64,000 bases of DNA. It comes from Flavobacterium ranwuense. Lineage in GTDB: Bacteria; Bacteroidota; Bacteroidia; Flavobacteriales; Flavobacteriaceae. Of the stretch, positions 8,104 through 21,345 are shown in pieces (position 1 is the stretch's first letter; every line of letters starts with the position of its first letter). The notes under the pieces are model-generated. The model had not been told where the DNA came from. It made no database searches and was given only the letters and a program-made list of their open reading frames with translations. Both the position numbers and the translations under genes were made by a program. The stretch covers positions 124,001-188,000 of the forward strand of contig NZ_SMLH01000005.1 in assembly GCF_004349315.1 (NCBI RefSeq), written 5' to 3'.

Positions 8104-8802
8104 TTATTTGATTCGAGTCAAAATATCATTCATCATTTCGATTTGTACTTTTTGAATTTCTATTAATTCTTCTTGTTGATGCATAATCAAATGATCCAGT
8201 TTTTCATGAAGCATTCTGATTTCAAGTTCTGATTTCAGATTAATCATATAATCTTTTTTGGCTCTATCCCTGTCCTTTTCTTCCTGACGATTTTGACTCA
8301 TCATAATCACCGGAGCTTGAAGTGCGGCAAGACAAGACAAAATTAGATTCAGCAAAATAAATGGATACGGATCAAATCCTTTATTCATCAGAATATAAAT
8401 ATTGGCCAAAATCCACAACAAAATAAATACACCGAAGAGAATGATAAATTTCCAGCTTCCGCCAAAAGCAGCAACTTTATCCGCAACTTTTTGACCCACT
8501 GTACGAACTCCAATTTCATCTTCAACAACACTCACTAAAGACTTATCTTGGTTTAAAGATCCAATTACCTTTGTTTCCAGATTCGACAACTCCCCTATTT
8601 CGACTACTAAATAATTAGATATGTATTTCTCCCGATACATATTCAACTCCCCAATTGCTAAGCACTTACCCCCATCAAAATCAGGATAATCCTTTTGTAT
8701 TAGTGCCAGAATTGGGTTTCTGATTGATTTAGCAATAATTTTATCCGCTATTGAAAATTCTTTTTGGGAAATATCACTTATAAAAGTAGTCTTGGATTTC
8801 AT
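8104..8802 (-). CDS. DUF1003 membrane protein
   Basis: The 232-aa protein has an N-terminal soluble region, then the DUF1003 core: GVRTVGQKVADKVAAFGGSW followed by two membrane helices (about residues 115-133 and 142-163) and QNRQEEKDRDRAKKDYMIN. The C-terminal part is predicted coiled coil (EIRMLHEKLDHLIMHQQEE). DUF1003 has no assigned biochemical role, though some members sit near magnesium/cobalt transporters. It is a single-gene unit convergent with the DUF2752 gene. Confidence 0.8.
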   Translation of the reverse strand: MKSKTTFISDISQKEFSIADKIIAKSIRNPILALIQKDYPDFDGGKCLAIGELNMYREKYISNYLVVEIGELSNLETKVIGSLNQDKSLVSVVEDEIGVRTVGQKVADKVAAFGGSWKFIILFGVFILLWILANIYILMNKGFDPYPFILLNLILSCLAALQAPVIMMSQNRQEEKDRDRAKKDYMINLKSELEIRMLHEKLDHLIMHQQEELIEIQKVQIEMMNDILTRIK

Positions 8803-9020
8803 AGTTAATTATTTATTGGCTAATTTAAAAAAACACTTTCACCAAAACTAATAATTGGTTCCTATACATTGAAAATAAAATAGATACACAACAGCTTTTT
8901 CATCTTAAAAAATTTAAAACAGCAATAATCATTGCTTTTAATATCAATTTATTTAACAAAAGTGTCTAAATAAACACCATAGCTTTATGTTTAAGAAATA
9001 AATAATTCAAAATAGTTCAA
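8803..9020. other. AT-rich intergenic region upstream of the cysM leader
   Basis: This is the spacer between the divergent DUF1003 and cysM units. I saw no ORF, hairpin or repeat in it beyond AT-rich sequence; the recognisable elements begin with the promoter at 9021. Confidence 0.6.
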
Positions 9021-9029
9021 TATCTTTGC
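9021..9029 (+). promoter_or_regulatory. Bacteroidota -7 promoter element for the leader and cysM
   Basis: TATCTTTGC matches the TAnnTTTGC element exactly. It would place the transcript start near 9033-9036, about a dozen bases before the leader ATG at 9047. No clear -33 TTTG is visible at the usual spacing. Confidence 0.7.
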
Positions 9030-9046
9030 AGTTCTTTTTAAAACCT

Positions 9047-9106
9047 ATGAAAATGTTACTGAACTACAAAAATATTCCTATCTGCTATTGTTGTTGCTGT
9101 TTTTAA
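9047..9106 (+). CDS. Polycysteine leader peptide for cysM
   Basis: A 19-codon ORF (MKMLLNYKNIPICYCCCCF, then TAA) begins about 18 bases after the -7 promoter word and ends 86 bases before cysM. Five of the last seven codons are Cys (TGC TAT TGT TGT TGC TGT). Such runs are typical of attenuator peptides, where ribosomes stall when charged tRNA-Cys is scarce. The codons at 9095-9103 (TGCTGTTTT) are perfectly complementary to 9185-9193 (AAAACAGCA), which includes the A of the cysM start codon. This suggests translational control: stalled ribosomes would keep the cysM start open. Polycysteine leader ORFs are known in mycobacteria; the pairing model here is inference. Confidence 0.75.
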   Translation: MKMLLNYKNIPICYCCCCF

Positions 9107-9193
9107 AATACTCTCTTTAAAAAAATTGTTCAAAAACGAATACCCTTTGTAATCAATTAGAATCTGATTATTACAATTTAAGACAAAACAGCA
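9095..9193 (+). promoter_or_regulatory. Putative cysM translational attenuator fold
   Basis: Three elements can be seen. A 9-bp perfect complement joins the Cys codons 9095-9103 to the cysM start region 9185-9193. Inside it lies a hairpin TTGTAAT (9147-9153) with ATTACAA (9170-9176). No T-run follows the hairpin, so transcription termination is less likely than start-site sequestration. Folding was judged by eye. Confidence 0.5.
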
Positions 9194-10080
9194 TGAAATC
9201 ACAAAAAATATTAGACCTTATTGGAAACACGCCTTTAGTAGAAACTACTAATTTGATAAAAAATAAAAACGTAAAACTTTTACTGAAACTCGAAGGAAAC
9301 AACCCTGGAGGCAGTGTAAAAGATCGGGCAGCCTACAACATGATTGCTTCCGCATTAGAAAGAGGAGAAATTAAAAAAGGAGATAAACTCATTGAGGCAA
9401 CGAGTGGCAACACCGGAATTGCTCTGGCAATGATTGCCCAATTATTCAATATAGAAATCGAACTGGTTCTTCCAGAAGATTCTACCAAAGAACGCACCCA
9501 AACCATGCTTGCTTATGGCGCCACCGTTATCTTGACTCCCGCAGATACCGGAATAATCGGTTCCAGAGATTATGCTGATAAAAAAGTAGCCGAAGGCGGC
9601 TATATTATGCTAAATCAGTTTGCAAACGATGATAACTGGAAAGCGCATTACAAAACTACTGGCCCGGAAATATGGAATGACACCGAAGGAACCGTAACTC
9701 ATTTTGTTTCTGCTATGGGAACTACGGGAACAATTATAGGCACTTCCACGTATTTGAAAGAGAAAAACCCAGCGATTCAAATTGTAGGCGCACAACCCAG
9801 CGATGGGTCTCAAATTCCAGGAATCAGAAAATGGCCCCAAGAATATTTACCTAAAATTTTTGACGCCAAAAAAGTAGATACAATCATTGAAGTATCAGAA
9901 GAAGAAGCACGAGCCATGACGAAACGTTTGGCGCTGGAAGAAGGCGTTTTTGCAGGAATGAGCAGCGGCGGCTCAGTAGCAGTCGCTATAAAAGTGGCGA
10001 ATCAATTAGAATCAGGAGTGATTGTTGCTATCATCTGTGACCGCGGCGATCGCTATTTGTCTTCGGATTTGTTTGATTAA
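9193..10080 (+). CDS. cysM: Cysteine synthase B (O-acetylserine sulfhydrylase)
   Basis: The 295-aa protein is a fold-type II PLP enzyme. It has the N-terminal IGNTPLVE motif, PLP-binding Lys43 in GGSVKDRAA, the phosphate-binding and substrate loop EATSGNTGIALA, and the glycine-rich GTTGT loop near residue 178. It joins O-acetylserine with sulfide (or thiosulfate for CysM-type enzymes) to make cysteine. Length and the NPGGSVKDRAA sequence favour CysM over CysK, but the two can be hard to separate. It is preceded by a polycysteine leader peptide, so cysteine itself probably controls expression. Confidence 0.9.
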   Translation: MKSQKILDLIGNTPLVETTNLIKNKNVKLLLKLEGNNPGGSVKDRAAYNMIASALERGEIKKGDKLIEATSGNTGIALAMIAQLFNIEIELVLPEDSTKERTQTMLAYGATVILTPADTGIIGSRDYADKKVAEGGYIMLNQFANDDNWKAHYKTTGPEIWNDTEGTVTHFVSAMGTTGTIIGTSTYLKEKNPAIQIVGAQPSDGSQIPGIRKWPQEYLPKIFDAKKVDTIIEVSEEEARAMTKRLALEEGVFAGMSSGGSVAVAIKVANQLESGVIVAIICDRGDRYLSSDLFD

Positions 10081-10212
10081 AAAATTACAAATCAACCTTC
10101 CTTTGTATATCTTTTTGATATAAAAAGTAATGCCGATTCTTTTTTTTGTTCTACTGGATTTTGTGTAAAAATCATAAACAGAGTCCTTTTAAAAAAGTAG
10201 TTTTCTTCTTTT

Positions 10213-10292
10213 AACCATATAAGAAATATAAGGTCATTTAAGTTTTAGTTTATATTATTAGGCTTATGTGTACTTATATTTCTTATGTGGTT
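10213..10292. repeat. Long inverted repeat downstream of cysM
   Basis: Two 20-base arms, 10213-10232 and 10273-10292, are complementary with one mismatch and are separated by 40 bases. The word ATAAG recurs inside the arms. It lies between cysM and the SGNH hydrolase and has no T-run, so it looks more like a dispersed intergenic repeat than a standard terminator. Confidence 0.65.
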
Positions 10293-10378
10293 TAAATTTA
10301 TCTTACTGTTTCACAACATTTCCAGTAGCACTTTTTTTTATATTTTTATGAGCTAATGAATTTCAAATCTGGTTACAA

Positions 10379-11071
10379 ATGAAAAATACAATATTAATTT
10401 ACAGCATTCTATTTTTATCAATCGTTATGGGAGGAAAAGCACAAGCTCAGGACTGGCCAAATTTAAATAAATACCAAAGTGAAAATGCAAATCTCAAACC
10501 GGTAATTCCCGGGCAAAAAAGGATTGTATTTATGGGAGATTCCATAACCGAATTTTGGAGTATAACAGATTCTCAGTATTTTACCGGAAAACCCTACGTT
10601 AATCGCGGTATTAGCGGTCAAACCACACCTCAGATGCTAATCCGCTTTAGAGCCGATGTTATTGCTTTAAAACCCGTCGTTGTGATTATTTTGGCCGGAA
10701 TAAACGACATTGCCGGCAATACTGGTCCTTCAACATTGGAGATGATAGCAAATAATATTTTCTCGATGGCCGAATTGGCAAAAGCAAACCAGATTAAAGT
10801 GATTCTTTGTTCTGTATTGCCAGCTTTTGATTTCTCTTGGAAACCCAATCAAAATCCCGCAGAAAAAGTGGTGGCTCTAAATGAAATGATAAAAAATTAC
10901 GCTGACACCAATGGCATTTTATATCTTGATTACTTTTCGGCTATGACAGATGAACGAAAAGGTTTGCCTGCTTTGTATTCTAATGATGAAGTACATCCCA
11001 ATAAAACAGGGTATCAAGTAATGGCGCCACTTGCCGAAAAAGCAATAACTAAAGTCTTGTTGCAAAAATAA
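10379..11071 (+). CDS. Secreted SGNH/GDSL-type acylhydrolase
   Basis: The 230-aa protein has a signal peptide (about residues 1-24, ending AQAQ). The SGNH blocks are all present: block I GDSITEFW with nucleophile Ser55, the block II Gly in NRGISGQT, block III GIND with Asn109, and block V DEVHPNKTGY with Asp203 and His206. It should act in the periplasm or at the surface on an ester, such as acetylated polysaccharide or a lipid. It resembles platelet-activating-factor acetylhydrolase-like members. It is monocistronic, with a terminator directly downstream. Confidence 0.85.
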   Translation: MKNTILIYSILFLSIVMGGKAQAQDWPNLNKYQSENANLKPVIPGQKRIVFMGDSITEFWSITDSQYFTGKPYVNRGISGQTTPQMLIRFRADVIALKPVVVIILAGINDIAGNTGPSTLEMIANNIFSMAELAKANQIKVILCSVLPAFDFSWKPNQNPAEKVVALNEMIKNYADTNGILYLDYFSAMTDERKGLPALYSNDEVHPNKTGYQVMAPLAEKAITKVLLQK

Positions 11072-11938: not shown

Positions 11939-13231
11939 ATGCAGGACACCATAAAAGAAACCTATACTGATTTAATGGCTTTTTTAAGAAACCCAAAAGA
12001 CGAATCGGGTCCAAAACTTACAGTAGCTGAGAAATTTAAAAAACTAATTTCTTTATTGATAATTGAGATTCCAATCATGGTCATTTTGATTCTTCTGATA
12101 AGTGGTTTGGAAACATTGGGACTTGTGGATTCAGATAACCACAAAATTCTGGATTTGATCAAGTCGGTTCCGGTTGCATTACTCCTAATCTTAACGGTTG
12201 TAATTATTCCTTTTTTCGAAGAATTAATATTTAGGCTGTATCTGCGTTATAAAAATAACTATGCACTGCATTTTGCAATTTCATTAGTTTCGTTTACAGG
12301 CGTTCGTAATGAACAAAAAGCGGAAACTTTCCTGATTTCTCTTTGGAAAAAAAGATACAAGTTCATCTTTTATTTTTCTGGTGTGCTTTTCGGGTTGATT
12401 CACATCACTAATTTTGAGTTCTCTTATACTATTTTACTTTTATCTCCAATATTAGTGGCACCGCAAATAATATTAGGTTTTTTTATTGGTTTTCTTAGAG
12501 TTCGTTATGGATTTGTTTTAGGGTTTCTAATGCACGCGCTTCACAATGCCGTTTTTATAGGATTCGGATTATTGTCCATGTTAAACCATTCCGAAAAATT
12601 AAACGTTGAAACCAGTTTATATTCCATCAAGATAGAGGAAACTAACGATATATACAGCCCAAGTACGCAACAAAATTATCCTGATAGCATTGCCTATAAA
12701 AACGTGAGCCTGAAAACAACCCTATCTTATTTACTGAATACAAATGAAATATTAGTACAAACGAATGATGAAAAAATGTTTGACAAAACGTTAAATTTAA
12801 ACTTTAAAAACAAATCGAAAGACAGTTCCCAAACAAAAAGCATTGCCTTGAATCAATTAGCAAAAAGCTATGATTTTACAATTAAAAAAAACACAATACA
12901 AACTGAGGTCTGGCATTTAAAAATTATGAATCCGGAAATTTTGGGGAAATACAAAACGGAGAATAACTCTTATGGAAACATGGTTACTGTAAACCCAGAA
13001 GAAATTATTATAAAAAAATCTAAGATTAAAACGCTTGTTGATGCTTTGACTAAAGAAAGTAACACAATAATTTTTGATAAAACGGATATCAAAAACAATT
13101 ACAATTTCACGCTTAAAACCAAGGATTTTGAAAGCTTAAATAGTCAATTAAAATACAAATACGGACTTTCCTTAGTCAAACAAAAAATGAATATGAAACA
13201 TATAACGATAGTGTTTCCAAAGCAAAAATAA
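11939..13231 (+). CDS. CPBP-family intramembrane metalloprotease with extra C-terminal domain
   Basis: The N-terminal 215 residues are a polytopic CPBP (Abi/CAAX) domain with the expected catalytic set: Glu94-Glu95 and Arg99 in FFEELIFRLYL, His155 in LFGLIHITNF, and His199 and His202 in FLMHALHNAV. Residues of about 225 to 430 form a soluble part with two similar units, each having a strand, a NQLAKSYDF-like helix and a VWHLKI-like strand. This part faintly recalls the TIGR03435 domain. Family members cleave prenylated proteins or act in bacteriocin immunity or signalling. The soluble tail is unusual for CPBP proteins and may hold a ligand- or substrate-binding unit. The target is unknown. 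Confidence 0.75.
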   Translation: MQDTIKETYTDLMAFLRNPKDESGPKLTVAEKFKKLISLLIIEIPIMVILILLISGLETLGLVDSDNHKILDLIKSVPVALLLILTVVIIPFFEELIFRLYLRYKNNYALHFAISLVSFTGVRNEQKAETFLISLWKKRYKFIFYFSGVLFGLIHITNFEFSYTILLLSPILVAPQIILGFFIGFLRVRYGFVLGFLMHALHNAVFIGFGLLSMLNHSEKLNVETSLYSIKIEETNDIYSPSTQQNYPDSIAYKNVSLKTTLSYLLNTNEILVQTNDEKMFDKTLNLNFKNKSKDSSQTKSIALNQLAKSYDFTIKKNTIQTEVWHLKIMNPEILGKYKTENNSYGNMVTVNPEEIIIKKSKIKTLVDALTKESNTIIFDKTDIKNNYNFTLKTKDFESLNSQLKYKYGLSLVKQKMNMKHITIVFPKQK

Positions 13232-21193: not shown

Positions 21194-21292
21194 TGGGCGT
21201 GACCGCAAGGGTCGGGCTATTCGCTGCAATCTTTTTTCTCCCTTCGCTCTCGCTGCAGGAGTAAAAAAGGATTTCCGCTATTATCCCTCACG
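21194..21292. repeat. GC-rich dispersed intergenic repeat, copy B (minus orientation)
   Basis: Read on the minus strand this block carries ATAGCGGAAATCC, GCGAGAGCGAAGGGAG and GATTGCAGCGAATAGCCCG. These words are shared in part with copy A at 14641, though in a different order. Its base composition stands out from the AT-rich surroundings. It runs up to the apparent upstream extension of the murQ ORF. Confidence 0.6.
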
Positions 21293-21345
21293 CAAAAAAA
21301 TAAATGTACGGACAACTCGCAAGTCGTCCTTCAAAAAAAATAACT

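Follow-up and report, generated by a model that had tools for sequence, protein, structure and literature searches.

A conserved, probable cysteine-ended leader peptide before stand-alone cysM in Flavobacterium and its possible pairing with the cysM start codon

How might a Flavobacterium adjust its cysteine synthase to its supply of cysteine? The question is raised by a short open reading frame (ORF) rich in Cys codons that precedes cysM in Flavobacterium ranwuense, within the window analysed here, a stretch of 64,000 nucleotides from contig NZ_SMLH01000005.1 (Table 1). The cysM product scores 484.5 bits against NCBIfam NF008735 (cut-off 413) and 405.8 bits against TIGR01138 (cut-off 394.2), and matches Pfam PALP. 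Its divergent neighbour (8104-8802, minus strand) encodes a DUF1003 protein. No Rfam family was matched at the gathering score in 8950-9260, and three sub-threshold eukaryotic matches in the leader region were taken as chance. Elsewhere in the window, a Flavo-1 RNA (RF01705) was found at 21206-21298 on the minus strand with 56 bits.

Table 1. Features of the cysM leader region, in window positions.
Feature	Positions	Strand	Basis
-7 promoter box TATCTTTG, predicted	9021-9028	+	Read in sequence; kept in stand-alone relatives
Leader ORF including the first ATG, MKMLLNYKNIPICYCCCCF and stop	9047-9106	+	Read directly
Alternative upstream leader start, not conserved	9047-9052	+	Relatives' alignment
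Leader ORF, conserved form of 17 codons, MLLNYKNIPICYCCCCF and stop	9053-9106	+	15/15 intact relatives
Cys-rich end C-Y-C-C-C-C, proposed cysteine sensor	9083-9100	+	Sequence and relatives
Proposed sequestering arm inside the Cys run, TGCTGTTTT	9095-9103	+	Perfect 9-bp complement
Hairpin between the arms	9147-9176	+	Minimum-energy fold; by-eye alignment
Complement arm AAAACAGCA, cysM bases -8 to +1	9185-9193	+	Sequence and relatives' register
cysM, encoding cysteine synthase B (295 aa); stands alone, without an operon cysE	9193-10080	+	NCBIfam, Pfam

The original prediction placed here a 19-codon leader behind a -7 promoter word, with five Cys codons near its end. The ORF and the five codons are present (9083-9085 and 9089-9100, the peptide ending in Cys-Tyr-Cys-Cys-Cys-Cys-Phe), but the conserved start is the ATG at 9053, which gives 17 codons, and not the one at 9047. 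All 15 relatives with an intact leader have an ATG at the 9053 position, the exact 17-codon length and a TAA stop, with zero indels, and in L116 a TAA directly follows the first ATG. The leader tails differ among these relatives (e.g. CYCCCCF, YCCCCCF and CYTCCYF), none having fewer than three Cys codons, and the leader codons show a pN/pS of 0.41. The alignment of relatives that had been suggested as a check thus finds the ORF intact in 15 of the 16 distinct relatives with a stand-alone cysM, the only loss being L123, where the start is gone and stops have been gained. Conservation of this coding ORF and of its Cys-rich end goes beyond chance, and the leader is real as far as sequence can tell. 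The -7 word was also found where it had been predicted; the Flavobacterium -7 consensus is given as TAnnTTTG in PMC9723704. Since this box and the conserved ATG would leave a 5' untranslated stretch of about 20 nt, a transcript starting from it would probably not be leaderless.

Orthologous cysM genes (at least 86% identity) were found in 64 of 150 Flavobacterium genomes; 80 cysM loci were fetched from genome contigs, and extra relatives were obtained by a DNA search of 398 genomes. From the 16 distinct relatives with a stand-alone cysM, the 15 with an intact leader were used for the register counts given below, which overstate independence because these sequences share ancestry. Loci L031, L032, L049 and L317 were merged with L114, L115, L121 and L048 as the same species (leader and spacing agree, genome identity being assumed). 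L001, L002, L007, L012, L020 and L028 were left out because their genomes were already counted (L052 duplicates L007), as were L122, L159, L266, L304 and L305, which repeat L043, L130, L087, L265 and L087. L045, whose Cys codons have no ATG in frame, and L240, where an ORF with Cys codons lies 166 nt upstream, were excluded from the leaders.

Could the same Cys codons reach the cysM start? The proposed 9-nt complement is exact: 9095-9103 is the reverse complement of 9185-9193, and position 9193 is the A of the cysM ATG. Such a match is uncommon but not unique. Among 50 ORF starts in the window, one besides cysM attains the duplex energy of the cysM match, and a contiguous match of equal or greater length occurs at two others. 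Of the operon-type cysM starts, 2 of 71 attain the energy seen in the window. The constancy of the register across relatives appears to be stronger evidence than the rarity of a single 9-bp match. In the fixed 9-bp register, 120 of the 135 cells are paired in the 15 relatives (113 Watson-Crick and 7 G-U), compared with 40-84 in nine slid registers (start side -6 to +3), and 13 relatives have at least 7 contiguous pairs in register. The cysM start region has the best mean complementarity to the Cys run (-9.8 vs -4.25, sd 1.8), and in a scan of 158-165 windows per species it was the best complement in 10 of 15. As to the covariation that had been put forward as a check, pair 5, the one pair that changes type, is standard in all 15 relatives (G-C in 8, G-U in 5, A-U in 2); between L118 and L119, tree sisters with moderate support (87/92), both of its sides differ, G-C vs A-U. 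Leader and complement are conserved in the stand-alone clade, barring two relatives for the register and L123 for the leader: L127 keeps the leader and scarcely the pairing (longest run 4), and L046 has a run of 3 in register and 8 pairs, two of them G-U, in another register. The reading of L123 as a co-loss of leader and complement was dropped, since 8 of its 9 register pairs, two of them G-U, are still possible.

The minimum-energy fold of 9036-9230 holds both the 9-bp helix and the hairpin between the arms, but its energy is just 1.1 sd better than that of shuffles. By eye, the hairpin is present in most close relatives; it is missing from L120, L121, L124 and L127, and is thus not essential. 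Against dinucleotide-shuffled start regions, nine representatives gave a joint P of 0.0125 (singly 0.04-0.97), and the exchange of leaders and start regions among the 16 relatives brought no significant loss (P 0.26). Compared with single-base shuffles, the duplex energies of the leaders with their own start regions are individually weak (0.002-0.89 of shuffles as good). The predicted cost of opening the cysM start of the window falls from 6.1 to 0.9 kcal/mol when the leader is masked. Mean predicted occlusion of the cysM start is 2.6 kcal/mol with real leaders vs 2.1 with shuffled ones (L149 and L004 yielded no leader and gave no value in this comparison), and 27% of shuffled leaders do as well as that of the window. 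Much of the predicted occlusion is explained by base composition. A further match to the cysM leader Cys run lies at window position 11939 (plus strand), where a 430-codon ORF has a start region able to pair with it over 16 bases (13 Watson-Crick, 3 G-U); this is probably due to chance, less probably a match in trans.

In the proposed mechanism, the ribosome would start at 9053 and read 17 codons. With ample Cys-tRNA it would finish and leave, and the freed 9095-9103 would pair with 9185-9193 and hide the cysM start codon. With scarce Cys-tRNA it would stop in the Cys run and cover 9095-9103, so that the cysM start would stay open and more cysteine synthase would be made. The conservation of the leader suggests this direction, in which a ribosome stall at Cys shortage would switch the enzyme on. 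A simple consensus scan of 8400-10400 gave no terminator-like site on the plus strand, a trp-type attenuator being defined by such a site, and translational control is thus likelier than classical transcription attenuation.

In most other fetched loci cysM follows cysE by a few bases, and 14 distinct ATG-started, Cys-ended leaders of 21-27 codons were found before such cysE-cysM operons in Flavobacterium and neighbours, two of the 14 (L265 and L306) being from a neighbouring genus. Loci with a leader upstream of cysE are a minority: one set gave 10 among 103 distinct stretches parsed, another gave 2 among 38 parsed Flavobacterium loci. At the family level 8 of 30 cysE loci were parsed, so that leaders in other genera may have been missed. 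In some other lineages the promoter is present and the leader absent (e.g. L055, L091 and L169). The operon-type leaders end 46-58 nt before cysE, except L306 (80 nt) and L105 (82 nt with a script-chosen start, probably too far). Eleven of the 14 stand behind a TATATTTG or TATCTTTG box (that of L306 found by eye), L087 and L265 behind another TAnnTTTG and L043 behind none, and their bodies cannot be aligned by eye outside the close groups L098/L231 and L087/L306. No common match of the Cys run to the cysE start was found in an opening-energy test of 9 loci or in a window scan of 12, L087 being a partial exception (-9.7 kcal/mol); for RNA structure, the stretch separating leader and cysE was viewed in single folds. 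Another mode of action must therefore exist in these operons, and the start-hiding design does not appear to be general beyond the stand-alone clade.

Two other elements were seen near cysE. Its start codon is flanked by TAATC and GATTA, a short hairpin conserved nearly letter for letter in 12 aligned loci (L040, L043, L060, L087, L098, L133, L158, L174, L231, L235 and L265, with L130 diverging near the start codon). A CTAAAAAACGCCTTACTTTTA-like segment is found some 40 nt ahead of cysE in many Flavobacterium (e.g. L003, L035, L224, L263), even without a leader, and could serve as another promoter or as a binding site.

The Cys runs of the 14 operon-type leaders match the start of their own leader, with a mean of -9.6 kcal/mol vs -7.8 for dinucleotide shuffles (P 0.003) and a mean of -7.4 for codon-permuted 5' parts (0 of 300 as good), and cognate partners match better than swapped ones (P 0.013). 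Singly, 3 of the 14 (L040, L130 and L235) reach 0.02 or less against dinucleotide shuffles, and several (L043, L060, L098, L105 and L087) are no better than shuffles. In 11 of 14 the matching arm falls between -7 and +23 relative to the leader ATG, the weak L043 included; that of L231 extends further, and those of L060 and L105 are upstream of the leader ATG. One guess is that this match limits reinitiation at the leader once the Cys run is free. The stand-alone leaders match their own start no better than dinucleotide shuffles (P 0.47) or swapped partners do (P 0.61), though better than codon-permuted controls (P 0.02).

The leader of the window is probably derived from that of a cysE-cysM operon, in which the loss of cysE would have put cysM beside it. 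Loss of cysE from a leader-cysE-cysM operon would be the simplest history: the clade of the window is without the operon cysE, and the TAGC before several stand-alone cysM ATGs is identical to the former cysE stop codon with one base added. In 14 stand-alone genomes, the best cysE match has 51-55% identity and lies elsewhere in 13, with none in one. In the genome of the window, this second cysE (G000:C18:99121-99681, L190; about 51% identical) is located about 25 kb before the window and is directly followed by a second cysteine synthase-like gene, named by eye. The 400 nt upstream of it hold no Cys-rich frame. A leader before the second cysE was rejected for this genome and 12 relatives, 4 of the 13 having Cys frames with no ATG in the stretch read and at least 190 nt away.

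Wider searches with Cys-run words in 397 genomes of the family and 395 of the phylum gave as convincing leaders just the cysE/cysM cases (14 of 20 and 30 of 30 loci read). The word CCCC followed by F or Y and a stop matched 32 times in 395 Bacteroidota genomes, and the 30 loci read contain, besides the window itself, three ATG-started short ORFs before a cysteine gene, all of them cysM leaders. Six other matches of one Cys-run pattern in the genome of the window were rejected, none being an ATG-started short ORF before a cysteine gene. L177, one of these matches, has an ATG, but an ORF above 80 aa is lacking within 250 nt. A locus from a different family of the class, L326 (G875), has MLILFSWCLFCCCCF and a stop 65 nt before a 478-codon ORF, which could be a Cys-ended leader or chance.

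Is there a leader at all, and if so, does it act as proposed? It is highly improbable that the ORF arose by chance in a 5' region: it is short, but its 17 codons have no indel in 15 relatives, at 14 further loci a Cys-ended ORF sits at the equivalent position upstream of cysE, and the ATG-started short ORFs before a cysteine gene in the loci read from the phylum-wide word search were cysM leaders alone. A true cysteine sensor could also act through Rho-type termination, RNA stability or initiation of the leader itself rather than by hiding the cysM start, and this mode of action may apply in the cysE-cysM operons, where the cysE start is not a common target and the Cys runs match their own start. 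For the window we give it rather low odds. Occlusion close to the composition level favours it in this clade, but the own-start match of stand-alone leaders does not exceed the dinucleotide null and the cysM start takes its place; moreover, there is no terminator-like site in the scanned region, and the stretch is C-poor, which would be unlike usual Rho loading sites.

A translated leader might pair with the cysM start as a by-product of U/G-rich Cys codons facing an A-rich start inherited from the end of cysE. TAGCATG is indeed found at 6 of 71 operon-type cysM starts, where TAGC is the cysE stop codon plus C, and the exchange test and the near-composition occlusion favour this explanation too. 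We nevertheless consider it doubtful in view of the register-specific conservation, the standard pair 5 in every relative and the positional peak of complementarity at the cysM start. This account and that of another mode of action overlap, so that their odds do not sum to one with the rest. Cysteine-responsive control through the leader peptide is very probable on these comparisons, and we lean towards a leader that controls cysM translation, with the cysM start codon hidden by the Cys run in this clade. The conserved Cys-ended ORF, the register kept in 13 of 15 relatives and pair 5 bear out this part of the original prediction, but the exchange test and an occlusion close to that of shuffled leaders do not; with these and the 8 of 9 pairs remaining in L123, sequestering is likely but unproven.

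Stalled ribosomes in mycobacterial leaders reportedly block structures that hide the next start site. Passages of PMC9031893 describe polycysteine short ORFs in mycobacteria in which cysteine-dependent ribosome speed controls the next gene, and the leader of the window shares with those leaderless ORFs its short length, its contiguous Cys codons near the stop and its place before a cysteine gene. In contrast to them, it is found in a different phylum, is probably not leaderless, precedes cysM alone (cysE-cysM in the operon type), and its Cys codons themselves would supply the pairing arm. It would work in the manner of the mycobacterial leaders; the comparison concerns action and makes no claim on descent. 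The cys leader peptides proposed for Actinobacteria (BMC Microbiol 2005, PMC1262725) likewise have Cys runs near the stop, precede cys operons and lack a terminator hairpin; Rho was proposed there, and the passages covered do not mention that the next gene's start takes part in pairing. In the same genus, amino-acid biosynthesis operons of Flavobacterium psychrophilum are reported to show strong signs of leader peptides, which are taken as transcription control, and no cysteine case is named in the parts of the paper covered (PMC9723704). In translation attenuation of the Erm type, leader stalling likewise opens a hidden downstream start (cf. PMC11264731), although the stalling there is induced by a drug and switches intergenic hairpins. 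In full-text literature searches, with most subscription papers outside their scope, none of the titles and abstract beginnings listed describes a leader of this kind from Bacteroidota.

As a tentative idea, the Cys codons might combine the roles of sensor and effector, their RNA being antisense to a start region and its target open to change. It is equally speculative that this target was the leader's own start before cysE-cysM and became the cysM start after the loss of cysE. If true, repeated-codon leaders would be ready-made regulators that a few changes beside any start codon can re-aim. A leader that controls cysM as proposed would extend cysteine sensing by ribosome stalling to Bacteroidota, whose start sites are rich in A and seldom rely on Shine-Dalgarno pairing, and would be a case of a leader outliving the loss of its first gene. 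Intact, broken and absent leaders among related species offer ready natural comparisons.
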